DNA of 39,538 nucleotides from a virus. Shown here one piece after another: positions 6,390-39,538 of this stretch (its first letter is position 1; every line of letters starts with the position of its first letter). The DNA is taken from positions 1-39,538 of IMG/VR virus record IMGVR_UViG_3300049846_001031, one strand, 5' to 3'. The notes beneath the pieces were generated by a model. The model was not told the DNA's origin and made no database searches. It worked only from the letters and a program-made list of their open reading frames with translations. Position numbers and translations under genes: made by a program.

Positions 6390-6568
6390 GCGCTCCAGCT
6401 CCAGCTCCCGCTCCCGCTCCCGCTCCTGCTCCAGCTCCCGCTCCTGCTCCAGCTCCCGCTCCCGCTCCCGCTCCTGCTCCTGCTCCAGCTCCCGCTCCTG
6501 CTCCAGCTCCTGCTCCCGCTCCAGCTCCTGCTCCAGATATTAAGATTGCCCATAACCGCCGGTGTCAT
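6386..6568 (-). CDS. Low-complexity Ser-rich ORF built from a hexamer array
   Basis: This 60-residue frame is linked by ATGA at both ends to the flanking genes. After an 11-residue start (MTPAVMGNLNI) it is 24 dipeptides of Ser with Trp, Arg or Gly, encoded by the hexanucleotide array at 6392-6535. The variable base of each hexamer changes the amino acid in this frame but would be silent in the neighbouring minus-strand frame (Gly-Ala repeats) or in a plus-strand frame (Ala-Pro repeats). This suggests the repeat may be, or may once have been, selected in another frame. It may not be a functional protein. Confidence 0.4.
   Translation of the reverse strand: MTPAVMGNLNIWSRSWSGSRSWSRSGSWSRSRSGSGSGSWSRSGSWSRSGSGSGSWSWSA
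6392..6535. repeat. 24-unit hexanucleotide tandem array GCTCCN
   Basis: There are 24 consecutive 6-bp units GCTCCN (plus strand) with N being A, C or T but never G. The other five positions are invariant. No other microsatellite of this kind was seen in the window. Replication slippage is the usual origin of such arrays; the strict confinement of change to one base in six implies selection on a reading frame or recent expansion from a few variants. Confidence 0.95.
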
Positions 6569-9043: not shown

Positions 9044-9744
9044 TGCGCCATCCATGCTGGCATCGTCGATTCCTGCGCTTTTTCAATGCGGTCCGCGGCG
9101 TGGTGCTTCCACGTTCGCACCGCCGCTTTCCAGTCTTTCATCTGCCCCGCTCGCCACCGCCAACCCCGCGCCGCGTAGTAATCGCAAAAGGCATTTGCAT
9201 TTACCGCAAAGCCAATGCTATTCGCATATATCCCCACTTCTTGCGGTGTTGGGGGGGTAAACTTGGTTTGTTTTCTTTGGCGTGAAACGCTAATATTTCT
9301 CTTCTCTTCTCTTCTTATTCTCTTCTCCTCTTGGACCGTTACATTTGCCGTTTCATTTACCGTTTCACGTAAGCGATGTCTTTTAACCCTACTAGTGCTT
9401 AAATCGCCTTGATATTTAGACCAATTTCGACATTTGATTTTGTATGAAACGATTGCAACCGTTTCATTTACCGTTTCATTTGCCGTTTCACTTTTTATCT
9501 CCTCAATTTCATATCCTGGTAATGATGAAACGACATGTAACACTTCGCTGAAACATTGAACTCTTAGCAAGTGTTGAAGGGCTCTTGCGGGGTCTTTTAT
9601 TTCGATTTGGCCTTCATCCCCATGACCCTTAATGAACACTCCAAGACGCGCCCAGCGAGCCCAATTTTCAAGCGTTAAATCCTCCAAATCGGGGTCTGTT
9701 ACGCTTGTCAGCCACAACTTAAACCACTTTCCTTGATCGGCCAT
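9040..9744 (-). CDS. Replication initiator / helicase-loader-like protein
   Basis: This 234-residue protein has three parts: an N-terminal domain (about 1-85, WFKLWLTSVTDPDLEDLTLENWARWARLG) like phage replisome-organiser winged helices; a polar linker (about 85-165) with repeated ETVN tetrapeptides and a basic KRIRREEKR stretch; and a C-terminal domain with FCDYYAARGWRWRAGQMKDW, the conserved core of phage helicase-loader and DnaD-like proteins. It directly precedes and overlaps the helicase gene, the usual initiator/helicase order. The tetrapeptide repeats are encoded by 12-bp iterons, suggesting that the gene contains its own replication origin. GAGGGG precedes the start. Confidence 0.8.
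   Translation of the reverse strand: MADQGKWFKLWLTSVTDPDLEDLTLENWARWARLGVFIKGHGDEGQIEIKDPARALQHLLRVQCFSEVLHVVSSLPGYEIEEIKSETANETVNETVAIVSYKIKCRNWSKYQGDLSTSRVKRHRLRETVNETANVTVQEEKRIRREEKRNISVSRQRKQTKFTPPTPQEVGIYANSIGFAVNANAFCDYYAARGWRWRAGQMKDWKAAVRTWKHHAADRIEKAQESTMPAWMAQ
9336..9494. repeat. Six 12-bp iterons inside the initiator gene, candidate origin
   Basis: Two clusters of three tandem copies of CCGTTTCATTTR lie at 9336-9371 and 9459-9494, 123 bp apart, with one or two changes in the outer units. A 40-base pyrimidine-rich tract (about 9293-9332) flanks them. Iterons inside an initiator gene are the arrangement of phage lambda ori in gene O. Binding by this protein is inferred, not shown. 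Confidence 0.7.
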
Positions 9745-16869: not shown

Positions 16870-18326
16870 GCGAATCACTCCTGATCGCTCAAGAAGCCTG
16901 TAAAAAGTCTCTCAAGTTTCTATGTACCGAAATGCTGGGCTATAAAGATTGGGACACCATTCACGATGAACTCGAAGTGTTCTTAAACCGCCCGTCGAAA
17001 CGAAAAGCTCTTCTCGTCCCACGCGGTCACTTGAAAACATCCATTGTGACCATCGGTAAAACAACTCAGATTCTTTTGAACGAACCCAACGCAAGGATCT
17101 TGATTGCCAACCAAGTCTGGGACATTTCACGCAAGATGCTCTTTGAAATCAAAGAACATCTCGAACGATCCAATTTAAAACATCTCTTTGGCGATTTCGT
17201 GTCCGATAAATGGAACGCCGATACGATTGTGATCCGTCAGCGCGACCGCGCCATTAAAGAAGCCTCGATCACCACAACCGGAACCGAAGCGGAATCCACC
17301 GGCGGTCACTTCGATTACATCATCCTGGATGACTTGATTGGACACCAAAACTCGGCCACGTTCGAACTGCGCGAAAAGGCCAAACGATTCAGACGCTCGA
17401 TGTTTAACTTGATTGAACCCGATGGTCTTGTTTTGGATGTCGGTACACGCTGGCATCTGGACGATTGTTTCTCTGAAATCATCGAAAAAGAGTCGAAATA
17501 TTACGACATCATGATTCGTCAAGTCGTCGAAAACGGACGCATCATCTTTCCAAAGAAGTTCTCCAAACGATTTAACGCGACCCGTAAAACGTGGGAATAC
17601 TCCGAAACCCCGTGCATGGACTACATCAACTATTTGCGCGAAACGTTGACCACTTCCGAGTTTTCCAGTCAGTACATGAACAATCCCGTCGATGAAGAAA
17701 ACCAAGTGTTTAAACCCGCGTACTTTAAAAAGTACGAACGACGACCGGAGAACCTCTATCTCGCCATGACCGTCGATCCCGCTATCTCCGACAAACAGGG
17801 ATCCGACTATTCCGTGATCGTCGTCGCCGGGATGGACGACCAGCACAACATTTATGTCATGGACTATGTTCGCGGACATTGGACCCCGCATGAACTGATC
17901 GAGCGGATGTTTACGACCTATTTGAAATGGAAACCATCGGCGATTGGCCTTGAAACCGTCGCGTTTCAGAAGTCGCTGAAATACTTTTTGGAAGAAAAGA
18001 TGATGATGCTCGGAGTCCATTTCCCGATTGAAGAGATCCGACGCGGGTCAAACGCTTCCAAAGAGTTTCGCATCAAAGCCCTTGAACCCTATTACCGCGG
18101 CGGTCGCGTCTACCACGCTTCGTGGATGAAAGACCTGGAAGACGAACTGGTCACTTTCCCCAAGGGCAAACACGACGACATCATTGACGCGCTTTCAGAT
18201 CAGTTGGAACTTTTATTGCCCGGCAGCGTGGATCATTCGTTTCAAATCCCGCCCGGATCTTGGGAAGACATTCGGCAAACGGCACGGCGCATGAATATGC
18301 AGTACAGATCCTTTTTTCAGGAGTAA
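16866..18326 (+). CDS. terL: Terminase large subunit (packaging ATPase-nuclease)
   Basis: This 486-residue protein starts at GTG overlapping terS. The ATPase domain has a variant Walker A VPRGHLKTS (51-59) and Walker B YIILDD (151-156), followed by a VGTRWH coupling-like motif (192-197). The RNase H-fold nuclease domain has TVDPAISD (D304), an IGLETV strand (E363) and HDDIIDAL (D437, D438, D441), the acidic cluster that holds metal ions. It pumps and cuts concatemeric DNA into the procapsid through the portal encoded next. All key residues are present, so the enzyme should be active. Confidence 0.95.
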   Translation: MSESLLIAQEACKKSLKFLCTEMLGYKDWDTIHDELEVFLNRPSKRKALLVPRGHLKTSIVTIGKTTQILLNEPNARILIANQVWDISRKMLFEIKEHLERSNLKHLFGDFVSDKWNADTIVIRQRDRAIKEASITTTGTEAESTGGHFDYIILDDLIGHQNSATFELREKAKRFRRSMFNLIEPDGLVLDVGTRWHLDDCFSEIIEKESKYYDIMIRQVVENGRIIFPKKFSKRFNATRKTWEYSETPCMDYINYLRETLTTSEFSSQYMNNPVDEENQVFKPAYFKKYERRPENLYLAMTVDPAISDKQGSDYSVIVVAGMDDQHNIYVMDYVRGHWTPHELIERMFTTYLKWKPSAIGLETVAFQKSLKYFLEEKMMMLGVHFPIEEIRRGSNASKEFRIKALEPYYRGGRVYHASWMKDLEDELVTFPKGKHDDIIDALSDQLELLLPGSVDHSFQIPPGSWEDIRQTARRMNMQYRSFFQE

Positions 18327-18328
18327 GA

Positions 18329-20122
18329 ATGGCTGACGCGGAAGTCGTAACCAAAGAAGAACAAGATCGACGGTCAGAAGTGGCTTTATGGCACGACCGG
18401 ATCAACACGTCCCGTAAATGGCGCGATGACATCAAAGAGCGTAACGGTTGGGAACGGTTTATCAGTGAATACAAAGGCGAATATAAAGTTGTTTTGGGCA
18501 ATCTCCAAGTTCCACCGATCAATGAAGTGTTTGCCTATACGCAGTCGCTTATCACATTCCTTTTCGCCCGAAACCCCTACATATCGGTAAATCCAAAAAA
18601 GACCGGGACGATTCTGGGCGCGAAGATTTTAGAAGCCGCCGTCAATTATTTCTGGCGTGAACTCAAAATCAAAGAAGAAGTGCAGCGCGAAATCATTGAT
18701 GCCATCTTGGTCGGGCATGGCTGGCACAAAACCGGGATGGACGTGCAGTTCGACGGGAAAGTGATCCATAGCGACAAGATGTTCTCCAACCGCATCTCAT
18801 GGAAAGATGTGTTCTTTAACATCGGAGCCATGAACCCGCCGTATGACTGTCGATGGGTCGCGCATCGTATTTACATGCCGGTCGATGACATGAAAAAGAA
18901 GTTCGGCACGGTTGCGGCGAACGTGAACGGTGTATCGCTCCCCGCGACCAGTCAAGACACCTACAACTCGGCCAAGTTCAAAGACGATTTGCGTTACGGG
19001 TGCATTTACGAAATCTTTGATGCCAAAAGCCGGATGATCTATTTGATTTCCGATGAAGTGCCGTTCCAGTATTTGCAAGACCCGAAACCGTGGCCGGAAT
19101 ACTTGGAAACGGTTCCCTTTTCGATGATTCAGTTCAATCCGATCAACGACGAGGCGTATGGTTTGTCGGATATCGCGCCTTGGGAAGCGCAGATCCTCGA
19201 AAAGATCAAAGTGTTCACGATGAGTTTAAACCACGTGAAACGCTTTAACCGACAGCTCCCGATCAAAAAGGGAACGATGTCGCCCGAGTCGATGGACAAG
19301 TTTGAAAAGGGGATTGACGGTTCGATCCTTGAGGTGACTGGTAACTACGAACAGTTAAGACCGCTCGATTTCGGGGCGTTGCCGCCGGATATTTACATCA
19401 TTTTGGACCGCCTAGACGCTATCAAGCGTAACGTAAATGGTCTCCCAGAGACCTTCCAAGGCGGTCAATTTAAGACCCAAACCCGCACTTTAGGCGAACT
19501 GGAAGCCGTGCAAGGCGGGGCGATGGGTCGTATTCAGCGCAAAATCGATGTCGTTGAAACGCATTCCGAGAACATTGCGCGTCAGATACTGGCGAACCTC
19601 ATGAACCAGTTCCCGCTCGAAACAGCGGTCAAAATCACGGGCCAAGAACCTCAAGAAGTGATTGCTGCGTTTCAAGATGCGGGGATCTTTGATCCTGTAT
19701 CGCAAACCATTTCTTTCAAATCAGATGACATCAAAGGCGAATACGACGTGGCGGTCAAAGCCGGGTCAACGCTTCCGCTCGACAAAGGAACCCGCGACCA
19801 GATCTTAGACCGTTTGATCGAATTGGCGATTCCGCTTGCACAGGCCAACAGTATCCCGCCTTTCTTGGAAGAACTGATCAAAGAACGCTTGAAGGCTTAC
19901 GACATCTTGAGCCTCGAAGAAGCGTTCAAGATGCAGCAGGAAGCCTTAGCCAAGAGCGAAGACGAGCAATTGCAGCTTGAAAGTATCCAAGCGCAAAAGA
20001 CGCTGGCCGAAACCGCCAAACGTCACGCGCAAGCGGAACTCATTCAAACCGACACCGATTTAAAACGCGCAACGGGAATGGCTAAAGCGACGGGGATGAT
20101 CCCGATGGATGTCAAAGTATGA
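18329..20122 (+). CDS. Portal protein
   Basis: This 597-residue protein starts at the ATG at 18329 two bases after terL, with a CAGGAG site. It shows the portal pattern: an N-terminal helical segment with LQVPPINEVFAYTQSLITFLFARNPYISV, a wing region (WHKTGMDVQFDG, WKDVFFNIGAMNPPYDCRWV), a stem/crown with LNHVKRFNRQLPIKKG and NGLPETFQGG, and a long C-terminal helix. Portals form the dodecameric ring through which DNA enters and leaves. Length and position after TerL agree; the TerL-portal order is standard. The C-terminus is a Gln/Ala/Glu-rich coiled helix (EEAFKMQQEALAKSEDEQLQ). Confidence 0.9.
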   Translation: MADAEVVTKEEQDRRSEVALWHDRINTSRKWRDDIKERNGWERFISEYKGEYKVVLGNLQVPPINEVFAYTQSLITFLFARNPYISVNPKKTGTILGAKILEAAVNYFWRELKIKEEVQREIIDAILVGHGWHKTGMDVQFDGKVIHSDKMFSNRISWKDVFFNIGAMNPPYDCRWVAHRIYMPVDDMKKKFGTVAANVNGVSLPATSQDTYNSAKFKDDLRYGCIYEIFDAKSRMIYLISDEVPFQYLQDPKPWPEYLETVPFSMIQFNPINDEAYGLSDIAPWEAQILEKIKVFTMSLNHVKRFNRQLPIKKGTMSPESMDKFEKGIDGSILEVTGNYEQLRPLDFGALPPDIYIILDRLDAIKRNVNGLPETFQGGQFKTQTRTLGELEAVQGGAMGRIQRKIDVVETHSENIARQILANLMNQFPLETAVKITGQEPQEVIAAFQDAGIFDPVSQTISFKSDDIKGEYDVAVKAGSTLPLDKGTRDQILDRLIELAIPLAQANSIPPFLEELIKERLKAYDILSLEEAFKMQQEALAKSEDEQLQLESIQAQKTLAETAKRHAQAELIQTDTDLKRATGMAKATGMIPMDVKV

Positions 20123-23294: not shown

Positions 23295-23512
23295 TGATTC
23301 AGGGGGCGGTTCGTGGAATCAGGCGATGGCTTGAAAACCTGAATCGCCCCCTGTTGATTTGGTGGCGGTGTATTGAGTGCGGAACGTTGGTATTTGAAAA
23401 CGATAGAAGTCGAAGTGGGCATTTGGGGCACAAGAAACGACGCTGGGCGAGACTAACGCTAACAGAAAGGTTCCTCATTCGTTGGGGATTGATGAAAGAA
23501 CTGTATGAGTGA
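23294..23512 (+). CDS. Small zinc-ribbon/basic protein
   Basis: This 72-residue protein starts at the TAATG overlap with the preceding gene. It has CIECG (about 26-30) and a downstream H-x2-H (HLGH, about 46-49), a plausible zinc site, and an Arg-rich second half (KKRRWARLTLTERFLIRW). It may bind nucleic acid or a glycosyltransferase partner, being immediately before that cluster. Function unknown. Confidence 0.6.
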   Translation: MIQGAVRGIRRWLENLNRPLLIWWRCIECGTLVFENDRSRSGHLGHKKRRWARLTLTERFLIRWGLMKELYE

Positions 23513-24320
23513 TGCGGCTCCAGAGTACGCAAAAGCGGAAGAAATAGCGGCTGAAAAGAAAGAAGAAGGCGTGGTTCGCGTCTGCGTGGCAATCCCCAAT
23601 ATGGGATATACGCAGCCTGAAAGTTACGCCAATCGACTTTTTAATTTCATGAAAATGGGCGAACTCCAAGCCAAGGGTGAACTCTTAAAACAAAACCCTC
23701 GTTTTGATTTCCGGTTTGTGGTGATGGGCCGACTGTTTACGCCTTTGGCGCGAGAAGAAGCGGGGCGAATGGCTTTAGAGGCGGATTGCGACTATTTGTA
23801 CATGATCGACGACGACATGATTTGTCCAGACGATATGTTCCAGCGTCTTTACGCGCATAACGTGGATATCGTCGCTCCATTGGCGTTTAGCCGCAATCCT
23901 CCGCATAAACCCGTGATTTACGAATCTATTGAGATTGACGATCCTGTGCGGAAAATGAAAAAGCCGGTCAACCGATGGGCGAACTATTACCGCGACTGTT
24001 TAAACGAATGTGACGCGGTGGGGTTTGGCGCGGTTTTGATCAAGACCGATGTTTTGCGTGCGATTCCTGAACCACGGTTTATGTCAAGCGAAGGCACTGG
24101 CGAAGATTTGCTCTTTTGTTACAAGGCCAAAAAAGCGGGGTTCCGTGTGTTTATGGATACCGCTTGCAAGATTGGACACCTCAGTAACCCCAGCATTATC
24201 ACGGAATCTTATGTCGATCAGTTCCGTGCGATTCACAAAGAACCAAGTGCTGACGGCGGCAAAAACTCTTACAAGAAGTACAGACTCCCCAAAGGGGAAG
24301 CGGTATTGGTGAACGGATGA
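23505..24320 (+). CDS. GT-A-type glycosyltransferase
   Basis: This 271-residue protein has a nucleotide-sugar binding architecture: an N-terminal VRVCVAIPNMG strand, ALEADCDYLYMIDDDM with a DDD metal motif (residues 102-104), and a later CDAVGFGAVLIK (acceptor side) followed by GEDLLFCYKAKKAG (GED of family 2-like enzymes). Short phage glycosyltransferases of this type transfer sugars to capsid/tail proteins or DNA. Its start overlaps the upstream gene (ATGAGTGA) and its end overlaps the next transferase. The acceptor is unknown. Confidence 0.85.
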   Translation: MSDAAPEYAKAEEIAAEKKEEGVVRVCVAIPNMGYTQPESYANRLFNFMKMGELQAKGELLKQNPRFDFRFVVMGRLFTPLAREEAGRMALEADCDYLYMIDDDMICPDDMFQRLYAHNVDIVAPLAFSRNPPHKPVIYESIEIDDPVRKMKKPVNRWANYYRDCLNECDAVGFGAVLIKTDVLRAIPEPRFMSSEGTGEDLLFCYKAKKAGFRVFMDTACKIGHLSNPSIITESYVDQFRAIHKEPSADGGKNSYKKYRLPKGEAVLVNG

Positions 24321-25606
24321 ATCCTTTAGTGTCGATCATTATCCCGTCATGGAACAACATGGACTATCTCGCTCCGTGCGTGAATTCGATTGTGAGGACC
24401 GGTGCTTTAAATGGGTTGGCTGAACTCATTATCGTCAATAACGGTGATTATCCTCTGACTCCTATCTTTGCAGGGTATCCCAGCACGAAAGTGATTGAAA
24501 CAGGGGAAAACCTTGGATGGGAAAAGGGGCTGGCTCGAGGACTTAAAGAGTCTAACGCGCCTTACGTTTGTTTTCAAAATGATGACACGAACATTCCACC
24601 CGCTTGCGCTGATTTTTACTCCAAGATGCTGTATCCATTCCGCGATCCGAAAGTGGCGGCAGTAGGTCCATCTACAACGACAGCGGCGGGCTGGCATTCG
24701 ATGTTCATGGACTCGCCCACCATTCAAATTAAGCCTGTCAGTTACTTGATTTTCTTTACCGTGATGCTTGAACGAAAAGCACTCGAAGAAGCGGGAGGGG
24801 TCGATATTACGGCTCCCGGTGGCGACGATCTGGACCTATCCATTCGGCTACGAAAGATGGGACGGACGCTTGTGGTTAACCCGGCTGCATTTTTGATTCA
24901 TCACGGGTTTAAAAGCGGAACTCGTCTGCGCGGCGACCATACGAAACATGATGGCTGGAACTCTCTTGAAATGAGAGACAAGACGAATCAATGGCTGATT
25001 CAAAAACACGGATTTAAAACCGTTTTGTTTACGCAACAAGGGTACGTGGAACAAACGGTTAATGGTCAGACTTCTGATTCGGAGGGGAATAAGATCCGGT
25101 CTTTGATCACAGAAGGCAAAACGGTTCTTGAACTCGGTTGCGGCGGTCAAAAGACCGTCCCAAGTGCCATCGGCGTTGATCGTGTTCCGCACGGTGCGAT
25201 TATTCCGCATGTGGGTGTTCCAAGTGTTGCCGATATTGTGGCCGATGTGGATAAACCCCTCAATGAAACTCTAAAAGAAAAGTTTGACGTTGTGATTGCT
25301 CGCCACATTCTTGAACATTGTGTGGATACGGTTGGAACGCTTAAAGAGTGGTCGTCGCTTTTAAAAGACGGCGGTCAACTCATTATCGCGGTTCCAAATG
25401 AAGAGATCTGCAAAAGCATTCCGATGAACCCTGAACACGTTCACGCTTTTACTCCCACATCCTTGTCGTCTATCGCCGAAGCGTGCGGTCTTGTCGTCGA
25501 TCAGGTAGTGGATTCTGAAAACAATGTGTCGTTTATCGGATCGTTTCGCAAACCAAGTCGAAATGGAAAAACCGTATCGGAATCAATGGAGGCGTGTCTT
25601 GCTTAA
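24317..25606 (+). CDS. Fusion of family-2 glycosyltransferase and SAM methyltransferase
   Basis: This 429-residue protein has two domains. Residues 1-230 are a family-2 glycosyltransferase (VSIIIPSWNN, AELIIVNNGD, a DD metal pair at 89-90 and GGDDLDLSIRLR around 175). Residues about 260-415 are a class-I methyltransferase: TVLELGCGGQKT (SAM loop), IARHILEHCVD, LKDGGQLIIAVPN and HVHAFTPTSLSSIAEACG. Such fused enzymes likely add a sugar and then methylate it, capping or diversifying a glycan. It overlaps its neighbours by a few bases, indicating coordinated expression in the structural operon. Confidence 0.88.
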   Translation: MNPLVSIIIPSWNNMDYLAPCVNSIVRTGALNGLAELIIVNNGDYPLTPIFAGYPSTKVIETGENLGWEKGLARGLKESNAPYVCFQNDDTNIPPACADFYSKMLYPFRDPKVAAVGPSTTTAAGWHSMFMDSPTIQIKPVSYLIFFTVMLERKALEEAGGVDITAPGGDDLDLSIRLRKMGRTLVVNPAAFLIHHGFKSGTRLRGDHTKHDGWNSLEMRDKTNQWLIQKHGFKTVLFTQQGYVEQTVNGQTSDSEGNKIRSLITEGKTVLELGCGGQKTVPSAIGVDRVPHGAIIPHVGVPSVADIVADVDKPLNETLKEKFDVVIARHILEHCVDTVGTLKEWSSLLKDGGQLIIAVPNEEICKSIPMNPEHVHAFTPTSLSSIAEACGLVVDQVVDSENNVSFIGSFRKPSRNGKTVSESMEACLA

Positions 25607-26495
25607 AGTAGCGAACTACTACGAGGTTTTGCACAGAAACGATGGGAATCCTCTTTACGTTACGGCCTGCTTGAAACGTTTCCAAGATCAAGGTCTTCTT
25701 AAATTTGAACGATTGGCTCCGCGTGGCGACTACTCGCCATATGGTCCATTTGATCTGAACTTCTGGATTGATTGGGGCGAAGACGCTCTTAAAGGGGTAC
25801 TTCCGTATGAGCCGAAATACCCGGATCATCCTTGGGCTTATTGGGCCAGCGACACGCATTTGGGATACGACTATCGACTGTCAGTTGCCAAAAAAGCGGA
25901 CTTTGTTTTCTGCGCTCAGAAACGAGCGGTGGAAGAGTTTAAGCGCGATGGGGTAGAAGCAACGTGGTTGCCTCATGCGGTGGAACCATTGGCTTATCCT
26001 CGTCAGCGGATTGTCAGCAAAAAGTACGACATCGGATTTGTCGGCCATGTTAACAACGAAAAACGAATTGATGCTTTAGATCGGATGTTTCGTGAATTCC
26101 CTAACTTCTATTACGGGCAACGGCTCTTTGAAGAAGCGGCTCGCAAATATGGGGAATCGAAGATCGTTTTCAACATCAGCCATGTTGATGACATCAACAT
26201 GCGGACCTTTGAAGCGATGGCAACGGGAACCATGCTTTTAACCGAATGGGTTCCGACGATTGAAGAACTCTTTGAAGACCGTAAACATTTGGTGTTGTAC
26301 CGGAGTTTAGACGAGGCGGTTGATTTGGCGAAGTATTACCTCACGCACGACTCTGAGAGAGAAAAGATCGCCAATGAAGGATGCAATCACGTTTTGGCTC
26401 ATCACACCATTGAACATCGGGTGAGGGCCATGTTGGATAAATCCGTTCCACATTGGAACGTTAAACAGGAGACCCCAAGTGTTGCAAGTATTTAG
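25599..26495 (+). CDS. CgeB/GT4-like glycosyltransferase
   Basis: This 298-residue protein starts at TTG with a perfect GGAGG site six bases upstream; an ATG at 25563 would overlap the previous gene by 44 bases. It has ADFVFCAQKRAVEEFKRDG in the first half and KKYDIGFVGHVNNEKR, RTFEAMATGTMLLTEWV and a HHTIEHRVRAML tail in the second, the pattern of CgeB/YkvP-type (GT4-like) transferases with a GT-B fold. It completes a three-enzyme glycan cluster. Confidence 0.8.
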   Translation: MLKVANYYEVLHRNDGNPLYVTACLKRFQDQGLLKFERLAPRGDYSPYGPFDLNFWIDWGEDALKGVLPYEPKYPDHPWAYWASDTHLGYDYRLSVAKKADFVFCAQKRAVEEFKRDGVEATWLPHAVEPLAYPRQRIVSKKYDIGFVGHVNNEKRIDALDRMFREFPNFYYGQRLFEEAARKYGESKIVFNISHVDDINMRTFEAMATGTMLLTEWVPTIEELFEDRKHLVLYRSLDEAVDLAKYYLTHDSEREKIANEGCNHVLAHHTIEHRVRAMLDKSVPHWNVKQETPSVASI

Positions 26496-27051
26496 GATCG
26501 TTACCGCTGGACGAGTAGACAAGATGATTGCTTTTGATGAGCTTCCCAAACGGCTACTCGCAGGAATCCGTAAGCGTGACGAAAGCGCAACGCGAGGTCT
26601 TCGAGAGTTTTTGAAATCGAACAAGTGTCTCGATAAACGCATTACTCAATGGAAAAACCCGGAAACCGGTCAGATTGAAATGATCGAGTCTTTCTATCCG
26701 TTCACCTATCAGCTTGAGCCTAAAACGATCAATGCGGATGGCGAAAAGTGGCAGGAAATCGAAAGTTATGTTCGACGGGTGGTTGATCCCAATGTACGAC
26801 TTATGGACCGGATTGAAAACATGGCGATTGATATGGCCGTGGATTCCTACAGCGAAATGAACTTGGAGCCTGAAAACATCCCGGTCATTCCGATTCGACC
26901 TGAAATTGTGTCGCCTAAATCGGTTCCGGTTTATGAAGCACCGATTGTTGAAAAAGCAGAAAAAGAAGCGGAAAAGGTTGTCGTTGAAGAAATTAAAAAG
27001 AAACGTGGTCGGCCACGGAAGATTTTGGAGGTAGCAGGAAATGCTCAATAA
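26479..27051 (+). CDS. Structural-region protein with C-terminal AT-hook
   Basis: This 190-residue protein is helical in its first two thirds (RKRDESATRGLREFLKSN, then WQEIESYVRRVVDPNVRLMDRI) and ends with Val/Pro/Glu-rich linker and a KKKRGRPRKI motif (about 173-182), the canonical AT-hook core RGRP that binds the minor groove of AT-rich DNA. It starts at GTG or TTG inside the preceding gene. Its location between capsid and head-tail connector genes suggests a virion-associated DNA-binding role; this is inference. Confidence 0.7.
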   Translation: MLQVFRIVTAGRVDKMIAFDELPKRLLAGIRKRDESATRGLREFLKSNKCLDKRITQWKNPETGQIEMIESFYPFTYQLEPKTINADGEKWQEIESYVRRVVDPNVRLMDRIENMAIDMAVDSYSEMNLEPENIPVIPIRPEIVSPKSVPVYEAPIVEKAEKEAEKVVVEEIKKKRGRPRKILEVAGNAQ

Positions 27052-27388
27052 CTATAAAGACTTGTTTGGACGGGCTACCGTGAATAACGGAGCCGCAACT
27101 GCCACTGTCATTGCAGCCCCCGGTGCTGGAAAAGCGATCAGGGTTATTGCGGGAGTTGTGAATGTAACAGCGGCGGCGACGGGTGGCGGTGGGACCATTG
27201 AAATTCGGGATGGTTCAACCGCCATTCTGACGTTTGATGCCAATGCAGTGAACTCGTATCCGTTTGCGTTTGATTACAGCAACGGGTATCCGCTCACGGC
27301 GAATACGGCCTTAAACATTGCCACAACGGGCGCGGTAACGACTCAAGCGACGGCCAATATCGCCGTGGTTGCGTATCAGGTCGGGTAA
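27041..27388 (+). CDS. Small beta-sandwich virion protein
   Basis: This 115-residue protein is almost entirely beta-like and Gly/Ala/Thr rich (ATATVIAAPGAGKAIRVIAG, GGTIEIRDGSTAILTF), typical of small head or tail decoration proteins. The GGAGG site lies nine bases upstream inside the preceding gene. No defined family was recognised. Confidence 0.65.
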   Translation: MLNNYKDLFGRATVNNGAATATVIAAPGAGKAIRVIAGVVNVTAAATGGGGTIEIRDGSTAILTFDANAVNSYPFAFDYSNGYPLTANTALNIATTGAVTTQATANIAVVAYQVG

Positions 27389-31145: not shown

Positions 31146-31345
31146 ACGATAACCTTTCAGATGTTGTTCGGCCTGTTTTGAATATGCCTCAGATCAATGG
31201 GGATATCACGCTGGCAAGCCCGACAACAGAAACAACGGTGGGCGCAGCTGGTGGTGCGTCAGCCTTACCAGCAACGCCGCTGGGGTACATCATCATTAAT
31301 TTAGGGGGAACGGGGTCTGTAAAGATTCCGTATTACACCGCTTGA
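31142..31345 (+). CDS. Small beta-rich tail-region protein
   Basis: This 67-residue protein is Gly/Thr/Ala rich (VGAAGGASALPATPLGYIIIN) with a C-terminal beta strand (GSVKIPYYTA). It overlaps the preceding gene (ATGA) and ends where the GNAT-like gene begins (TTGA). It may be a minor virion component; the family is unknown. Confidence 0.55.
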   Translation: MNDNLSDVVRPVLNMPQINGDITLASPTTETTVGAAGGASALPATPLGYIIINLGGTGSVKIPYYTA

Positions 31346-31803
31346 ATGAAGAGATCCATGTCATCAAAGAGTTACAGCCTAGCCTTACGCCGCAGGTTGA
31401 GGCGGCTGTCAGAGATTTCATGCGCGAAAGCGACCTTAACGGAGTCAATGAAGAAGGATTTTACTATCAGACCCTCGAAAGCATTGCGGCTGCTACCTAT
31501 CTTGGTGGAGGTGGTGAATTCTGGGTTGCTACCAAAGATGGCGAACTTCTTATCTACATACTCGCCAGCGTGGGTAAGGATTTTGATAACCGTCTTACCT
31601 ATCACGTTAATCAAGCGTGGGTGCGAAAAGATTATCGCGGTAGGCCCATTGTTAAGGCTTGGTGGGAAGCTATTCGGGAGAGGGCGCGCAGTCTGATGTG
31701 TGGTCATTTGGCGATTACATCGAGTCGTGGAGTTAAAGCGTATGAACGTTTTCTGGGTCATGGAATGAAGTATTACGCATCTATTTTGAAAGAGAGTTTG
31801 TAG
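31342..31803 (+). CDS. GNAT-like acetyltransferase in the tail operon
   Basis: This 153-residue protein starts at TTG overlapping the previous stop. Its second half shows the acetyl-CoA-binding pattern of GNAT proteins (VNQAWVRKDYRGRPIVKAWWEAI, then YERFLGHGMKYYASILK), with R/Q-x-x-G-R-like residues YRGRP at the start of the CoA-binding helix. The first half has beta-strand sequence (EFWVATKDGELLIYILAS). GNAT proteins are found sporadically in phage tail operons; the substrate is unknown, possibly a virion or host protein. Confidence 0.65.
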   Translation: MNEEIHVIKELQPSLTPQVEAAVRDFMRESDLNGVNEEGFYYQTLESIAAATYLGGGGEFWVATKDGELLIYILASVGKDFDNRLTYHVNQAWVRKDYRGRPIVKAWWEAIRERARSLMCGHLAITSSRGVKAYERFLGHGMKYYASILKESL

Positions 31804-31812
31804 GGAGGATTT

Positions 31813-32502
31813 ATGGGTAAGAAAGCTGGTGGTATTGCAAAAAGGGCTGGGATTGCAACTTTAACGGGGGGTCTTTCAGAATTTGCTCAAAAGAATCCGT
31901 ATGGGGTTCCAATGCCAAACAATCCAATTCGGAAAGCTCTTGGTCTTTCGGATGATCAGAAAACGACATTAGATGGTGAGTTTTCGATTTCGCCAGAAGA
32001 ACTCAATGCAAGTACGGGGGCCATTTTAAACGAAGGAAAGACTCAATCGGAAATGCGTGGGAAACGCCGTCAAGAACTGGCTGATCTTCTCTACAAATCT
32101 CAAGATCGAATATTCCGAGACAACTATCCACAAATTGCCGAAGACGCAAACTCCAAAGGTCTTTACACTGGAACAGGGTTTTCAGAGGCGTTAGCACGTG
32201 AGAAATCTCGTCTTGCGGCTGACACAACGGATGCTCTCAGTCAGCAAGCATTGGGAGATTTGGATGCAGAACTTGGATTTAGAAACAACGCATTAAGCCG
32301 ACGATTCTCACTTGAAGATTTTATCCGTTCTGCCAATGTTGCCAAGAACGCAGGATTAGCGTTACAGCCAAAATCAGATGGCAAGGCAGGGACAGGGGCT
32401 ATTCTTCAAGGTGTTGGTGCTCTTGGAAAAGGCGTTCCCGGCTTTATGAGTCTTTTTGCATCTGCTGCTGGCAAGAACAAATCGGAGAACTCCAATGGCT
32501 GA
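31813..32502 (+). CDS. Internal virion / ejection protein candidate
   Basis: This 229-residue protein is rich in Gly/Ala/Ser/Lys, with helical middle part (EMRGKRRQELADLLYKSQDRIF, then ALAREKSRLAADTTDALSQQ) and Gly-rich flanks. Podovirus ejection proteins are commonly alpha-helical and Ala-rich and lie after the tail hub genes. Its overlap with the next gene and shared style suggest a set of internal virion proteins. The assignment is from position and composition. Confidence 0.6.
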   Translation: MGKKAGGIAKRAGIATLTGGLSEFAQKNPYGVPMPNNPIRKALGLSDDQKTTLDGEFSISPEELNASTGAILNEGKTQSEMRGKRRQELADLLYKSQDRIFRDNYPQIAEDANSKGLYTGTGFSEALAREKSRLAADTTDALSQQALGDLDAELGFRNNALSRRFSLEDFIRSANVAKNAGLALQPKSDGKAGTGAILQGVGALGKGVPGFMSLFASAAGKNKSENSNG

Positions 32503-33664
32503 TTTCGATTTCAAAGAGAAGTTTCCCATATCCGATTACATCAACGGAATCATCAAAAAGCGACAGATTGAAGAAAAAGCGCGTCAGAATGGTCGTCAAG
32601 CGATCATTCAGGGGTTGTCGTCTATCAGCGATGTGGCGAATCAATATGCAGAACGTAAAGCACAAAACGAATCTGATTTGGCAAGAGCGGCTATTTTAGC
32701 CAAGACGAATCCTGAACTGATGGGATCGTTTGACAAACAGATTGGCACAAGAACTGATGAACAACCGTTGCCAACAGGCGTTCAAGGCCCGCTTCCTGAA
32801 CCTACTCAAAAACCGATTAAGTTGTCCGATACCATGTCCGGTCGCCAACAAGTGATTCAGTCGATGGCTAATGCGCTACGAGGGGTTTCTGGGGATACGT
32901 TCTTAAAAGAATTGTCTCCTGATTACATCATCAATTCAGTGACTCCCTATAACGTTGCAACGGGAGAACGAGGGGAAACGATTACTCAAAAAGTGCCCAA
33001 AGGATCGAAGACGACGATGATTCCTTTTGGATCTCGGCCCAATATGCCAACCGCAAGTTTGCGCGAATCTCAGTATGTAGATGAAGACGGAACGCCATTA
33101 ACATTTGTTCCATCTACAGGGCAGCGTATTCGACCTGATGGAACAGTAGCGAAGAAGCCAGTTCTAAGAAAAGGTGATGAGTCTTCCGTTCAAGATGCAA
33201 CTCTCATTGCAAATCAATTGCCACAAGTAGACGTTCTGTTTGACGCTTACAAGAACAAAAACAAGTTGGGTAAATCAGCGCAAGCGACCCCTCTAGGTTA
33301 CGTTCTTGATCCAGCAACAAAACAAGCTGAAAACAGTCTTAAATTGGCGGCATTTACATTCGGCGGAAAAAATCTTACCGGACAAGAAAAGGAAGTTGTT
33401 TTTGGCGCATTATTTCCAAATCCGTTTGACAACGATGCTGCCAGAGAAAAGAAACGCACTTTGCTTAAGAACTTCTTTACAGGAAAGATTGATCTACTTG
33501 AAGCAGCGAATCAGCTTGGGCCATCTGCAAAGCCATTGCGTGACTTGCTGATACGAATTCAGAAACAATCAGACAGTTCTCGTGGTATTTCCACCGGCGG
33601 TTTAACCCCTCAAGAAGCTGCTGAATTAGCGCAACTTGAAAGAAAACATGGGGGGAGAAAATGA
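32495..33664 (+). CDS. Internal virion / ejection protein candidate
   Basis: This 389-residue protein starts at the ATG with GGAG upstream; the longer in-frame start is unsupported. The N-terminal part is helical and Lys/Arg/Gln rich (FPISDYINGIIKKRQIEEKARQNG), the middle has a Pro/Gln-rich linker and the C-terminus is charged (AAELAQLERKHGGRK). It follows a smaller protein of the same class and is coupled to the next gene. Ejection role is inferred from the podovirus operon order. Confidence 0.6.
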   Translation: MADFDFKEKFPISDYINGIIKKRQIEEKARQNGRQAIIQGLSSISDVANQYAERKAQNESDLARAAILAKTNPELMGSFDKQIGTRTDEQPLPTGVQGPLPEPTQKPIKLSDTMSGRQQVIQSMANALRGVSGDTFLKELSPDYIINSVTPYNVATGERGETITQKVPKGSKTTMIPFGSRPNMPTASLRESQYVDEDGTPLTFVPSTGQRIRPDGTVAKKPVLRKGDESSVQDATLIANQLPQVDVLFDAYKNKNKLGKSAQATPLGYVLDPATKQAENSLKLAAFTFGGKNLTGQEKEVVFGALFPNPFDNDAAREKKRTLLKNFFTGKIDLLEAANQLGPSAKPLRDLLIRIQKQSDSSRGISTGGLTPQEAAELAQLERKHGGRK

Positions 33665-34968
33665 CAGAACAAGAAGAACTTGAACGTTTACGTTACCTTC
33701 AATTAAAAGCGAAGGCGGCCCAGTATCAGGCTCCAATTCAAAACGATGCGACTGAACCCTCTACTCCTTCCGAAAACGGTATTCAAAGGTTTCTTCCAAT
33801 GGCGGGTGCGATAGCTGGTGGAACGATTGCAGGTCCCGCTGGCCTAGTTCCGGGGGTTGGTACAGCCATTCGTTCGGGGTCAGCAGGGCTTGGAGCTGGG
33901 TTCGGCGAAGCCATGAATCAGTTGATTTCAAGAGCGCGTGGACAAGAAGCTCCTGATACATCGGCAGAAGCCGCGAAAAGAATTGCGACTCAGGCTGGGA
34001 CAGCAGCGGCGGCAGAAGCGGTTGTTCCAGCAGCGGTTCGTGGAGCTAAAAAAGCGTTTGAAGTTTCTAAGCCATTGGCAAGTGTTGCAGGGAAAGGATT
34101 AGCCAAAGTCGGGGAACTTATTAGTGGTGTTCCAGAAAGAGCGTTCCGACGATTGGCGAATGATCCGGGGGCATTGTTCATTCCGAAGACTTTAAAATCG
34201 GCTGGGAATGAATTTAATGAAGCATTAGCAAAAGAGGGGATTGATATTACGCCAAGCATTGCGGAAGTTAATGATCCGCAATTAGCGACTGCCAGAAGAA
34301 TTGCTAAAACTTTTATGGACAAGGTTCGCAATGGAGTCAAAAGCCCTGTACCCATACAGCGAATAAAAGCAACAGAACAAGTTGCACAGCCAAAATCTTT
34401 TATGGATATGGTTGAAGTCAATCCAAAGAATGTTGATCCACTTGTTAGCTCAAAACAGACAATTTCTTTAAAAGGTGCTGAAAAACTTCCACCAAAGATT
34501 GATGTCGTTGACGAATATCCAACGCTTCCTTTTCAGCCGAATGCTGGCGACATTCTAAAAGCGAAACGGGCAACAGATCGACTTATTGCTGGAACGTCAT
34601 GGAAAGACAAAGTAGGTCTTAGAAATCTTTTCAATCAAAGAACTCAGCAAAATGAAATGTTTGAGAACGCTTCTGGGAAAGGTGCGGAAGCCTCTAAGAA
34701 ATATGCTCGATCTGCTTTAGCGGCTCAATTTAGAAAATTACTGCCTGAAACGCAGACTGGAAAGCTCTCATTTGTGAAAAGTGTTGCCCTTCCTTTCATG
34801 GCACGTTCGGTCCTTGGAAACGTTGTTAGCGCACCCATTACATCAGGGCTTGTGACATCGTTAGGCTCATACGGTGTTCGTGGTGCAAAAGCAGCACTTG
34901 AAAATGAGATTGCAATGAGAGCAATCTTGAATGCTATTGGTGGAAGGATTTCAAAAGAGAATGGATAG
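33661..34968 (+). CDS. Internal virion / ejection protein with apolar helices
   Basis: This 435-residue protein has an N-terminal charged helix, then Gly/Ala-rich apolar helices (MAGAIAGGTIAGPAGLVPG, GSAGLGAGFGEAMNQ) that could insert in the host membrane when DNA is ejected. The C-terminus also has an apolar stretch (FVKSVALPFMARSVLGNVVSAPI). Membrane-active internal proteins are used by podoviruses to form a channel for DNA. It ends the main late gene block; three genes on the other strand follow. Confidence 0.65.
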   Translation: MTEQEELERLRYLQLKAKAAQYQAPIQNDATEPSTPSENGIQRFLPMAGAIAGGTIAGPAGLVPGVGTAIRSGSAGLGAGFGEAMNQLISRARGQEAPDTSAEAAKRIATQAGTAAAAEAVVPAAVRGAKKAFEVSKPLASVAGKGLAKVGELISGVPERAFRRLANDPGALFIPKTLKSAGNEFNEALAKEGIDITPSIAEVNDPQLATARRIAKTFMDKVRNGVKSPVPIQRIKATEQVAQPKSFMDMVEVNPKNVDPLVSSKQTISLKGAEKLPPKIDVVDEYPTLPFQPNAGDILKAKRATDRLIAGTSWKDKVGLRNLFNQRTQQNEMFENASGKGAEASKKYARSALAAQFRKLLPETQTGKLSFVKSVALPFMARSVLGNVVSAPITSGLVTSLGSYGVRGAKAALENEIAMRAILNAIGGRISKENG

Positions 34969-35258: not shown

Positions 35259-35564
35259 TCAATACTTGTAATCGTTATTCGGATTTGAATCGAGAGTTCT
35301 TCCCGAGTTTGGCGTATACCAGTCTGATCCATACGTCTTTCCGCTTCGTTGGTAGCCTGTGTTCATTTTTGGCTGACTTGGTTCGTAATCGTAGTTATCC
35401 CATCGGTTCGCATTTGGTTTGGATCGGTAATATGGTTCAACAACCGTTCCATCTCTTTTCGTGTATCCATCCACGCGAACATCGCCATAGCTTCTTCGAT
35501 TACGTTCCGCAAATGATGGAACTGAAACAAGGGCCAGAAGTACGAGAGTCAGTAGTTTTTTCAC
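35259..35564 (-). CDS. Exported protein of the VxGYxxxDGTxVxPYxRS family
   Basis: This 101-residue protein starts at GTG with GGGGGAG upstream. It has a clear signal peptide (MKKLLTLVLLALVSVPSFA, cleaved before ERN) and then VRVDGYTKRDGTVVEPYYRS, the hallmark of a widespread small secreted family in Gram-negative bacteria, with YNN-like and NTG-like elements behind. Its presence in a phage, on the opposite strand to the late operon, fits an acquired envelope-acting accessory gene (moron). Function in bacteria is not well established. Confidence 0.75.
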   Translation of the reverse strand: MKKLLTLVLLALVSVPSFAERNRRSYGDVRVDGYTKRDGTVVEPYYRSKPNANRWDNYDYEPSQPKMNTGYQRSGKTYGSDWYTPNSGRTLDSNPNNDYKY

Positions 35565-35649: not shown

Positions 35650-35784
35650 GTGAAAACTGTGACAGATGCTCAAACGCTTCTTTTGTTGCGTCAAATCAAT
35701 ATGAATTTGCTCAAGCTCATCAATTTGCTGGAGAAGATGGATCGGCAGGGGATGAAGGTTAGAACGCAGGAGTCGCACGCATGA
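35650..35784 (+). CDS. Small leucine-zipper-like protein, GTG start
   Basis: This 44-residue frame starts at GTG with GGGGGG upstream and ends in ATGA overlap with the next gene. The sequence is one amphipathic helix with regular Leu spacing (LLLLRQINMNLLKLINLLEKM), suggesting a short coiled coil. Similar small helical proteins precede tail genes in many phages. Coupling supports coding. Confidence 0.55.
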   Translation: MKTVTDAQTLLLLRQINMNLLKLINLLEKMDRQGMKVRTQESHA

Positions 35785-36029
35785 ACAATTACAACAGTTG
35801 GTTTAACTACGCGCAGGGCAATTTCATTCAACGGGTTGCTTATGACGCAAACTCGAATGCTGAATACATTGGCTGGGCGGCTCCCGGTACTGCGACTTCT
35901 GACAGTAAATGGCGCATCATCAAAAACACGTATGACGTTTCTAATCGGTTTACGGGGAGTGGATTTCCTTCTGGATCTCCAGCTTTTACTTACGTTTGGG
36001 ATAGTCGGGCCGGGTACACATTCCTATGA
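35781..36029 (+). CDS. Small tail-operon protein
   Basis: This 82-residue protein has YAQGNFIQRVAYDANSNAEYIGWAAPGTATSDSKWRI, a pattern (YIG-A-PGT-TSD-KWRI-K-TYD) that recurs in small proteins next to tail-fibre genes in metagenomic phages. It overlaps both neighbours by ATGA. The protein looks like a beta structure with aromatic core residues. The role may be assembly or attachment; it is inferred from position. Confidence 0.65.
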   Translation: MNNYNSWFNYAQGNFIQRVAYDANSNAEYIGWAAPGTATSDSKWRIIKNTYDVSNRFTGSGFPSGSPAFTYVWDSRAGYTFL

Positions 36030-39000
36030 ACAACACTTTTTCGACAGCAGTTGCGGCAGTCTTTACGCTTGTATCGGTTTCGGGTTGGGTAGCGGCAGAA
36101 CAAACCAAGACCGTTTACAACCCTTTTAGCGGGAAACCGGACTACATCACAAAGATTGACGCTAACACGATTGTGGCTGGATCTGGCGTTTCGGTTAACT
36201 GTACGAACGGGGCCTGTACGATTGACGCAACGGGTGGTGGAGGTGGATCATCGTCTTTAGAAGTGGTGGACGGTGTTCGTATTTCCAGCCCAACGGGAAC
36301 TATCTCATTTGACAGCAGTCAGTTTTCAGGCACTTTTATTGCGCCTTCTACGGCTTCTATTGCTCTAAACTCATCCAGCGTTACGTTGCAGGGAAACGCA
36401 TTTAATGGGAACAATCAGCTTGTTCAATTAAACACATCTGGCGTTCCTCCGTCTGGCTGGACGAATTATCTCAACTACCCCGCAACCGGAACATGGGTTG
36501 CAGGGCAAGGAATTACTGCCTCAACAATTACCGCCGATACTGTCTCAGCATCTACATTTACCGCAAGCACCAATATAACCGTCGATGGCGGCAACAATAT
36601 TGTCATGAATTACGGCAGTTTCCCTGTTGGAACGCGAAGCCAAATCTTATGGAAAAACTTCGGATCAACGAATGGTGGTATTGGTTTTAGCGATTCGCTT
36701 CCAGCCGGTTTTCGGATCTATGACAGCAACAACAACTATATCGTCAATATCTTTTCAAACGATTCAACAGGGATCTCGCCAAGAAAGGGGTTATCGCTTC
36801 CGGGCCAGAATCAAATACGTTTCTATGACAATGACAGTTCAAACTACATCAGTCTTAGATCGACCGGTTCTCTTGCATCGGATTACAACTATTTCTTACC
36901 AGAAACATACGGAACTGGCGGGATGTTTTTGCAGACTGATGGAACTGGGAATTTAGTTTGGGCAACGCCGTCGGGCGGCAGCGGTGGCGGGTCTTTGGCC
37001 GTTACAACGGGATCTTTGACCGGATATGTCGGACCCCCTGTTTCTTCACCGACCGCCGTTATCAACTTTGACAGTACCCGGTTTTCCAATACGTTGACTG
37101 ACAGCGCAACCAACTTCGTTACGCTTCTTTCTTCGCAAGTCTTTACCAATCTACAAGCCTCGACAATGACCGTCTTAAATAATGCGTTTGTGACGGGCAA
37201 TACTTATGTTGGCGCAAAACAAGTGCCAGTAGAATATCCGTCCGACACTTATTTCAGCAGAGTCGAAGAAACGGTCCTCTACAACACGAATAACAGTGGA
37301 TTCTCGAAAGGGGCCGCTGGAACGCTACAAACGATCACCGATGATGTCATTCGATCTACAGCGGCAATCCTTCTCACCAGTGATGGTATCGGATCCGCCG
37401 TCGTTGCCCGAAAGCTATCTATCAGCCCTACCATCGACTTCACGGGTCGGCAAGTGGTCCTGTATGTAAAGACCACGAATTACGCCAACATGACAGAAGG
37501 GCTTTTGTACCTTTCGAGCGATAACTTGTCGGCCAATTTCTTTGTGTTTGATTGGGCGGCGGCAACCAGTGGGCAGACCTACAAATACGTGACGGAAGGC
37601 GATTGGGTCAGGATTACGCTCAATTTCGGGATGGCAACAAGAACAGGGAGTCCCGACCGTTCGGCAATCAACTCGATTCAGCTACGCATCAAAGACAACG
37701 CATCTGGAACCACAAGCGTTAAGTGGAACGGTATCGCAACGATCCCCGAACCTCAGCGCGGGGTCGTAAGTCTTACCTTCGACGATTCCTATTCATCGCA
37801 GAACTCGACGGCAGCCGCCATTATGGATCAGTTCGGGTTTAGAGGGACTGCCTACACGATCCCAAACAACATCGGGCTATCCAGTACTTATCTATCAACC
37901 ACGACTCTCAGGAACTTGAGAGATGCTCATGGCTGGGAAATTGCATTGCACGATGAAACCGATTACACCACGTACTCGACAACCACTCTAAAAGATGTGA
38001 TCGCGGCGGCCAAAACCTATATGGTGTCGGAAGGGTTTACGACGGGATTAGATGGAATTGCCTATCCCAACGGTGCATTTAACGGGAACATGATCCGCAT
38101 TGCTCGGCAGTATTTCAACTATGGTCGAACGATCATCACGGGTCCGTCGGCAACGACACCGTATTTTGAAACGATCCCTCCTGCCGAACCAATGAAACTC
38201 CGGGCGATTGTGGTATCGAGCACAACCAGCAATCAGACGCTCTACAACTATGCGAGCCGAGCGGCCACAAATAAAGAGTGGCTGATTTTAGATTTCCACA
38301 ACTTAACCCATGCCCCATCAACTTCGATTGACGTTGATACAGGGACATTCACCACGTTCATATCGACCTTGGCCGCATTAAATGTCGATGTGCTTCCAGT
38401 AGGCGAAGTGATGCGTCAGATCCCTGCGGTAACTCGCATTTCGTCGGCGACGTTCAATGTTGCCAACCTTGCGGGGCCTCAGCCGTCCTTTGCCGCATAC
38501 GGTTTAAGTGTTGGCAGTATCACGATCCGAAACGTAGCTTCGGGGACTCAGTGCTTACAAGCCGATGCATCAGGCAACGTGACCGGAACGGGTTCGGCCT
38601 GTAGCGTAGGCGGGGGCGGCGGTTCAAGTACGCTTGAAGTCACGGTCGGTCCCCGCATTTCAAGCCCTACTGCGACTATCGCGTTCAATTTCAATCAGTT
38701 CACAGGCACACTGGCTGGCAGCGCGACTTCACAGATTGATCTCAATTCATCGAGCGTAACACTTCAAGGGAATTCAATACGGTTTACGGATTTATCGACA
38801 CGGCTTGATAACGTGGCGGTAGCGACCAATACGCTCGCAGTATCGGTTCTTGGCGTATCGTGGGATGGCGGCGGATCGGCTTTAACCACAGGAACGACTT
38901 ACTGGATGCAAATACCGTCCTCTGGAACGATCACCGAATTTACGATATCCGGTCTTCCGTCTGGATCAGTAACGGTAAATGTGTCCAGTTCGGCGGCTTT

Positions 39001-39187
39001 TAATACAGGACCGGGGTCTATATGCGCCGCAGCTTGTCCGTCCTTATCAGCCAGTACCTTTAGGCGAGACATTACGCTGACAGGCTGGACCACAAGTCTT
39101 GCCAAAGACGGATGGTTGTATTTCGTTGTGAACTCCGCATCAACCATACAGCAACTCTTGGTAAAGCTGGGGTACACAAAACAATGA
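36026..39187 (+). CDS. Large tail spike with polysaccharide deacetylase domain
   Basis: This 1053-residue protein begins with a probable signal peptide (hydrophobic residues 7-24, cleavage near VAAEQ) and KTVYNPFSGKPDYI. A beta module with SSPTxTIxFxxxQF and LNSSSVTLQGN appears near residues 76-130 and again near 870-930, with a diverged version near 325-385; each follows a Gly-rich linker. Residues about 575-800 form a NodB-type deacetylase: TFDDS (584-588), LHDET (641-645), YPNG (680-683) and DFHNLTH (756-762). The second metal His of the usual HxxxH motif is replaced (D646). It probably binds and deacetylates host surface glycan. The stop overlaps the second spike. Confidence 0.8.
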   Translation: MNNTFSTAVAAVFTLVSVSGWVAAEQTKTVYNPFSGKPDYITKIDANTIVAGSGVSVNCTNGACTIDATGGGGGSSSLEVVDGVRISSPTGTISFDSSQFSGTFIAPSTASIALNSSSVTLQGNAFNGNNQLVQLNTSGVPPSGWTNYLNYPATGTWVAGQGITASTITADTVSASTFTASTNITVDGGNNIVMNYGSFPVGTRSQILWKNFGSTNGGIGFSDSLPAGFRIYDSNNNYIVNIFSNDSTGISPRKGLSLPGQNQIRFYDNDSSNYISLRSTGSLASDYNYFLPETYGTGGMFLQTDGTGNLVWATPSGGSGGGSLAVTTGSLTGYVGPPVSSPTAVINFDSTRFSNTLTDSATNFVTLLSSQVFTNLQASTMTVLNNAFVTGNTYVGAKQVPVEYPSDTYFSRVEETVLYNTNNSGFSKGAAGTLQTITDDVIRSTAAILLTSDGIGSAVVARKLSISPTIDFTGRQVVLYVKTTNYANMTEGLLYLSSDNLSANFFVFDWAAATSGQTYKYVTEGDWVRITLNFGMATRTGSPDRSAINSIQLRIKDNASGTTSVKWNGIATIPEPQRGVVSLTFDDSYSSQNSTAAAIMDQFGFRGTAYTIPNNIGLSSTYLSTTTLRNLRDAHGWEIALHDETDYTTYSTTTLKDVIAAAKTYMVSEGFTTGLDGIAYPNGAFNGNMIRIARQYFNYGRTIITGPSATTPYFETIPPAEPMKLRAIVVSSTTSNQTLYNYASRAATNKEWLILDFHNLTHAPSTSIDVDTGTFTTFISTLAALNVDVLPVGEVMRQIPAVTRISSATFNVANLAGPQPSFAAYGLSVGSITIRNVASGTQCLQADASGNVTGTGSACSVGGGGGSSTLEVTVGPRISSPTATIAFNFNQFTGTLAGSATSQIDLNSSSVTLQGNSIRFTDLSTRLDNVAVATNTLAVSVLGVSWDGGGSALTTGTTYWMQIPSSGTITEFTISGLPSGSVTVNVSSSAAFNTGPGSICAAACPSLSASTFRRDITLTGWTTSLAKDGWLYFVVNSASTIQQLLVKLGYTKQ

Positions 39188-39538
39188 AAAAGATCATTGG
39201 TCTTTTACTGCTTTGCAGCACAGCGGCTTTCGCGGCTATTTCTTACAACGCGCTTTGGGAAGTAAGAGCGGATGCGACGGCCATCAACGTAAACGGTGGC
39301 GGGTTTTCGCCTGACTTTGTAGGCGGTGGGTTTGTGTCGGATCTGACCACAGATGCCAATACCGCCAATACCGCATCGCCTGTGTTGCAATCGGCAACAT
39401 TCAATTTCACCAGTACAGATCTTGGGAACTGGGTTTATATCTCGTCAGGGACCAGCTTTTATCCCCGATGCTTTTATCAGATCACATCGGTTGCATCAAA
39501 CAAGGCAACCGTCAACGCGACTGCTGGACAGGCTATGT
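39184..39538 (+). CDS. Beta-helix tail spike (5' part; continues at 1-1823)
   Basis: The gene starts by ATGA overlap with the deacetylase spike. It opens with a signal peptide (MKKIIGLLLLCSTAAFA) followed by ISYNALWEVRADATAINVNGGGF, a beginning also seen in other metagenomic phage spike proteins. The part after 39344 repeats positions 1-195, so the protein continues from there. Joined, it is about 660 residues with three copies of a WVYISSG-type beta module and a beta-helix. Together with the preceding spike it forms a two-spike receptor-binding system. Confidence 0.8.
   Translation, partial: MKKIIGLLLLCSTAAFAAISYNALWEVRADATAINVNGGGFSPDFVGGGFVSDLTTDANTANTASPVLQSATFNFTSTDLGNWVYISSGTSFYPRCFYQITSVASNKATVNATAGQAM
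39344..39538. repeat. Right copy of the contig terminal overlap
   Basis: Matches 1-195 with four silent differences followed by 127 identical bases; it shows that the contig closes into a circle or a permuted molecule. Confidence 0.9.

Follow-up and report, generated by a model that had tools for sequence, protein, structure and literature searches.

The window, that is, the whole stretch of DNA analysed, comprised all 39,538 bases of an IMG/VR virus record. A P22-type portal was present (PF16510, 3e-8, at 18305-20119), and a gp4-type adaptor (PF24175, 1e-13, at 27388) and a gp10-type stabilisation protein (phrog_3287, 1e-20, at 28284) lay in tandem. The coat protein at 21603 belonged to the Mx8 clade (phrog_9953, 1e-46), with matches to Mx8 and BUCT555. 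The gene order ran from portal, coat, gp4-type adaptor and gp10-type protein through ejection-type genes and spikes to a lysis-type cluster; judged by this gene content, the genome is a P22-like podovirus. The features discussed below were as follows.

16866, large terminase
31813-34968, ejection-type genes, assigned by position
35781-36029, plus strand, small upstream gene (82 aa) that overlaps the spike 1 start (ATGA) and has no signal peptide
36026-39187, plus strand, spike 1 (1053 aa), open reading frame confirmed, phrog_35197 at the C-terminus
36026-36097, plus strand, predicted Sec signal peptide of spike 1, MNNTFSTAVAAVFTLVSVSGWVAA, score 3.76
36098-36253, plus strand, mature N-terminal module of spike 1, beginning EQTKTVYNPFSGKPDYITK and ending in a Gly/Ser linker; its motif NPF[ST]GKxDY occurs in 55 other phage open reading frames
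37307-38418, plus strand, carbohydrate-binding-like region and NodB-type polysaccharide deacetylase domain of spike 1 (PF01522, 2e-7)
39184-39538, plus strand, 5′ part of spike 2 (118 codons), cut by the contig end
39184-39234, plus strand, predicted Sec signal peptide of spike 2, MKKIIGLLLLCSTAAFA, score 4.23
3-1823, plus strand, remainder of spike 2 (606 codons), a beta-repeat body reached via the overlapping contig ends
1820-2933, plus strand, lysis-type cluster after spike 2: transmembrane protein (1820-2086), DUF5675 protein (2249-2686) and transmembrane protein (2679-2933)

The DUF5675 protein matched PF18925 at 5e-30 and may have a lysis function. Elsewhere in the window, three glycosyltransferase-type genes, one of them fused to a methyltransferase, were embedded in the structural operon (23505-26495) and were kept in nearly all relatives. 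A GNAT-like protein (31342-31803) lay between the tail and ejection-type genes, a position conserved in the relatives covering the region, although it was not seen in L020. The minus strand at 35259-35564, in the interval that separates the ejection-type genes from the spike cassette, encoded a 101-aa exported-looking protein (MKKLLTLVLLALVSVPSFA followed by ERNRR) with a weak phrog_29674 match. An 18-bp tandem repeat of about eight copies occupied 6391-6534, its minus strand coding for SRSGSW-like repeats.

Both spike genes open with ATGA (at 36026 and at 39184), the ATG overlapping the stop codon of the preceding gene. Because such an overlap implies translational coupling, the N-terminal starts of both spikes are fixed; moreover, spike 1 had no further in-frame start between its ATG and the mature part. 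The initial annotation had placed two consecutive spike genes within 36026-39538. The open reading frames at these two starts held up, but spike 2 was not complete there. Positions 1-195 of the window repeated positions 39344-39538 with 97.9% identity, and the four differences were all silent, third-position changes. The contig therefore closes on itself, the genome being either terminally redundant or circular, and the second spike continues in the reading frame at 3-1823 to a total of about 660 aa. IMG/VR had found no end repeats on the record, yet its ends overlap by 195 bp. The silent differences, apparently between two population variants, suggest that the spike 2 protein is under selection.

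The label "spike" rests, for gene 1, on its position, on a NodB-type deacetylase region common to minor tail proteins of Gordonia phages and on a tail-type N-terminal module, and, for gene 2, on just its position and beta-repeat look. The spike 2 body had no match among GenBank phages, and its AlphaFold model, built without an alignment, had a pLDDT of 33. Single-sequence searches of IMG/VR with spike 1 and spike 2 returned no relatives.

The claim that both spikes begin with Sec signal peptides withstood comparison with shuffled sequences and control reading frames. The N-terminus of spike 1 consists of MNNTFSTAVAAVFTLVSVSGWVAA followed by EQTKTVYNPFSGKPDY, with the predicted cut before EQTK, and that of spike 2 consists of MKKIIGLLLLCSTAAFA followed by AISYNALWEVR, with the predicted cut before AISY. 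Our home-made score considered a hydrophobic stretch, the lack of internal charge, small residues at -3/-1 and the usual distance; by this rule, both N-termini had n-, h- and c-regions with an AxA-like site. When the first 35 residues were shuffled, 7 of 2000 (spike 1) and 37 of 2000 (spike 2) shuffles reached the observed scores of 3.76 and 4.23. Only two of 177 control reading frames from the same phages, each taken at the best of all its starts, reached 3.5 (L013 1513 and L020 8664), and both themselves looked like signal-peptide proteins. The score missed the obvious signal of the L014 spike, which has Pro after the likely cut. A lipoprotein signal in spike 2 (LLLLC) was rejected, the residue before the Cys being Leu. 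The n-region of spike 1, uncharged apart from the N-terminus, has no Lys or Arg before the hydrophobic stretch, as might be expected of a chance hydrophobic N-terminus or a wrongly chosen start codon. Such an origin is nevertheless most improbable, given the ATGA-coupled starts, the shuffle and control rates, and the recurrence of exported-type spike N-termini in more than 20 phages. Taken from these sequence features, it is very likely that the export signals are real and working.

Past the signal, the first 50 residues of spike 1, an otherwise variable phage protein, carried the motif NPFSGKPDY, so that the NPF[ST]GKxDY module stands at the mature N-terminus. Neither export N-terminus had a match among GenBank phages. 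A degenerate DNA pattern for NPF[ST]GKxDY recovered 61 IMG/VR stretches, of which six were unrelated and 55 were kept. In 37 of these the protein started directly with the module (plain forms, Met-x-x-x-x-NPF), and the other 18 (17 non-redundant) were export forms; the modules of L064 and L090 were nearest to that of spike 1. Ten of the 16 export-form records had a terminase match and are therefore tailed viruses, and the adaptor and gp10-type genes of L064 mark it as P22-like. Some AT-rich phages with export forms could have archaeal hosts.

The hydrophobic segment might alternatively stay uncleaved, as a signal anchor or attachment helix by which the spike is fixed to the membrane or the tail, and phage endolysins with uncleaved SAR signals do exist (PMC6116005). 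The initial annotation had named such a helix as the competing reading, and the comparison of the two forms disfavours it. In plain forms the module stood at the Met, without any such helix, and the motif Asn was residue 6 from the Met in 19 of 22 non-redundant cases. In export forms the signal ended 4-12 residues before the module, and the motif Asn was usually residue 5-9 after the predicted cut, with extremes of 10 and 13. Fifteen of the 18 had Ala at -1 with A, V, I, L or G at -3. The 18 signal sequences were mutually dissimilar, and the signal property was retained throughout. The near-constant position of the module past the cut of such dissimilar signals thus fits a signal peptidase restoring the same mature N-terminus, and not an attachment helix. 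On this comparison, the signal recurs as an addition to a tail module that is complete in itself; cleavage is likely, and a permanent anchor improbable.

Relatives gathered via the GNAT-like and gp10-type proteins carried signal-peptide spikes in the spike slot in four P22-like cases. The signals were MGKLKRLLSIGCCLATLTTPLWA in L014 (spike of 1119 aa), MGMAELKTTAFVCAFSFTLTGLVFA in L018, MDKVGGPVKKLLFLLCLSLPSIVLG in L010 (spike of 273 aa) and MKRLFWTFVALLIPVFACA in L013. In three of these four spikes, a second N-terminal module was shared, running from SRLNI to FTNGTVTDNGDGTVS. Of the nine loci found by scanning for this module, seven were new phages, and the other two repeated known ones (L021 is L014, and L022 is L010). 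At eight of the nine, the exception being L028, a signal peptide preceded the module, here SRLNI to TDNGDGTVS; the new cases were L023, L024, L025, L026, L027 and L029, with L023 and L029 counted only with an internal start. Tandem pairs of exported tail-type proteins also recurred (L064, L094, L076 and L026). Three consecutive tail-type genes, all beginning with signal peptides, were seen in L027 (4428-6017) and L094 (2038-5251).

Exported tailspike-like bacterial enzymes exist, and the signals could accordingly be genuine but functionless relics of capture from secreted host proteins. We regard this as very improbable: the phages retain the property with entirely different signal sequences, signals are found on two N-terminal modules that are unrelated, and no SRLNI-type module was found in host-genome proteins in a scan of 84,980 genomes. 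That scan, run with two queries, yielded no relative with either. Export is not obligatory in this lineage, because L015 has a plain protein in the spike slot and G001/L011 have no spikes there. In G001/L011, the last ejection-type gene was followed directly by the lysis-type cluster, and in G001 the DUF5675 gene and its two membrane-protein neighbours stood in the same order as in the window; the G001 coat protein was 66% identical to that of the window.

Cysteine content and the gene upstream also set the two forms of the NPF module apart. Export-form bodies contained 1.19 cysteines per 100 residues vs 0.50 in plain forms (Mann-Whitney p=0.0005, between lineages and uncorrected for ancestry). 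For all signal-peptide spikes vs all other phage reading frames the difference was slight (0.90 vs 0.76%), so that the enrichment is clear only within the NPF family. Spike 1 has six Cys arranged as three close pairs. Homologues of the 82-aa product of 35781-36029, which itself had no Pfam or PHROG match, were encoded directly upstream of 13 of the 18 export forms and none of the 37 plain forms (Fisher 6e-9, again between lineages and uncorrected for ancestry; about 2e-6 after near-duplicate removal). The 81-residue partner in L090 had no match among GenBank phages. The phages with the SRLNI module had a different gene family, of 89-92 aa, in the same upstream place, and the next gene had a signal peptide in six of seven. 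Signals, recurrence, common module and partner gene are all legible in the sequences themselves, and together the recurrence in relatives, the add-on signal before a common module, the cysteine enrichment and the dedicated upstream gene give good support to Sec export of the spikes, as initially proposed. Beside the adaptor gene of L020, a 139-aa protein (8664-9083) had a signal peptide, and the window protein in the same place (27041-27388) had none; the split into export and plain forms may extend to small virion-type proteins.

In Gordonia and Arthrobacter phages, minor tail proteins matched residues 438-797 of spike 1, as did a TM7 phage protein (tblastn, best 1e-28). In the alignment, the deacetylase retained its catalytic Asp pair (TFDD), along with the first metal His and also the distal one. 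The second His of motif 2 was absent (HDETDYTTY vs HATSYDTHV), as it was in the TM7 phage copy, and deacetylase activity is uncertain because of this missing residue. The region had no match in a PDB sequence search, and the AlphaFold models of this region and of the spike 2 body had a pLDDT of 33-34.

An enzymatic domain raises the question of whether these proteins ever belong to the virion. They could be exported, cleaved and act only as free enzymes and adhesins, in the periplasm or at the surface, which would modify the polysaccharide of the infected cell by deacetylation, for example to prevent progeny from re-adsorbing, to block superinfection or to weaken the envelope at lysis. The NodB-type domain of spike 1, which keeps the conserved Asp pair and two of the customary His residues, would suit such a role, as would the adjoining lysis-type genes and the ability of G001 and L011 to manage without the cassette. 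However, plain phage tail fibres begin with the same module that forms the mature N-terminus here, Gordonia phage homologues of the deacetylase region carry the annotation minor tail protein, and the slot after the ejection-type genes is the P22 tailspike position; in P22, the tailspike gene follows the ejection genes. A purely free enzyme is on balance less likely than docking on the virion, though a serious competitor.

We favour docking on the virion after export, for which we see an even chance or slightly better. We infer cleavage, oxidation, docking and a role for the upstream partner in the following scheme. Both spikes would be made with a cleavable Sec signal peptide and exported across the cytoplasmic membrane, and the signal peptidase cut would leave the same N-terminal module with which plain tail fibres start. 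The spikes would then fold in the periplasm or outside, perhaps with disulfides, and would dock on finished, spike-less P22-type particles once lysis mixes the compartments. The signal-less product of the small upstream gene would probably be the virion-side receptor or a dedicated helper. P22 spikes can be added to heads in vitro. Joining at so late a stage is feasible, because the tailspikes of P22 are attached once the head has been sealed, the portal being closed by gp4, gp10 and gp26 (PMC11728703). The complete model, from Sec export and cleavage through outside folding to docking at lysis, appears to us evenly balanced between right and wrong. The benefits of export can be guessed at: disulfides, an enzyme kept from cytoplasmic sugar precursors, or action on the host envelope before release.

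As it is taught, the assembly of tailed phages takes place purely in the cytoplasm, and a common export form of tail spikes, if true, would change that picture. More tentatively, and with somewhat less than even confidence, we propose that virion assembly is split between two compartments in a widespread class of uncultured tailed phages: heads would be filled in the cytoplasm, spikes would be Sec-exported, cleaved, oxidised and matured outside, and the two would be joined at lysis via a small virion-side partner. Such spikes would be predicted to be unable to fold, or to attach, when made without export. In metagenomes, they could be recognised by a signal peptide combined with an NPFTGKxDY or TDNGDGT module and a small upstream gene. 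Searches of the open literature (subscription papers and preprints were outside the scope) turned up exported endolysins but no account of signal peptides as a regular feature of tail spikes, which is weak evidence of novelty, and gene transfer agents, considered as a possible parallel for exported tail parts, yielded nothing.

Several known systems share parts of this arrangement. Among minor tail proteins, those annotated as "glucosaminyl deacetylase" in Gordonia and Arthrobacter phages have a homologous 360-residue carbohydrate-binding and NodB region, but four aligned examples lack the spike 1 module ahead of it. Exported phage endolysins (Lys44, SAR lysozymes) are, like the window spikes, late phage proteins that use the host Sec pathway (PMC6116005), although they are lysis enzymes and not receptor-binding tail proteins. 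WceF of Pantoea stewartii, a trimer of tailspike fold that acts on polysaccharide, carries a Tat export signal (PMC7949094), and an exported tailspike-fold trimer is thus possible; unlike the window spikes, WceF is encoded by a bacterial gene, uses Tat and not Sec, and acts outside any phage particle. P22 resembles the window in its portal, gp4-type adaptor, gp10-type protein, gene order and placement of the spike after the ejection-type genes. Its gp9 tailspike is made and used in the cytoplasm and is not known to have a signal peptide. Moreover, gp9 has a head-binding domain that is unmatched in the window: it was not found in spike 1, whose sole Pfam match at E<=0.1 was PF01522. In P22, as in the scheme proposed here, the gp9 spikes join the particle late (PMC11728703).
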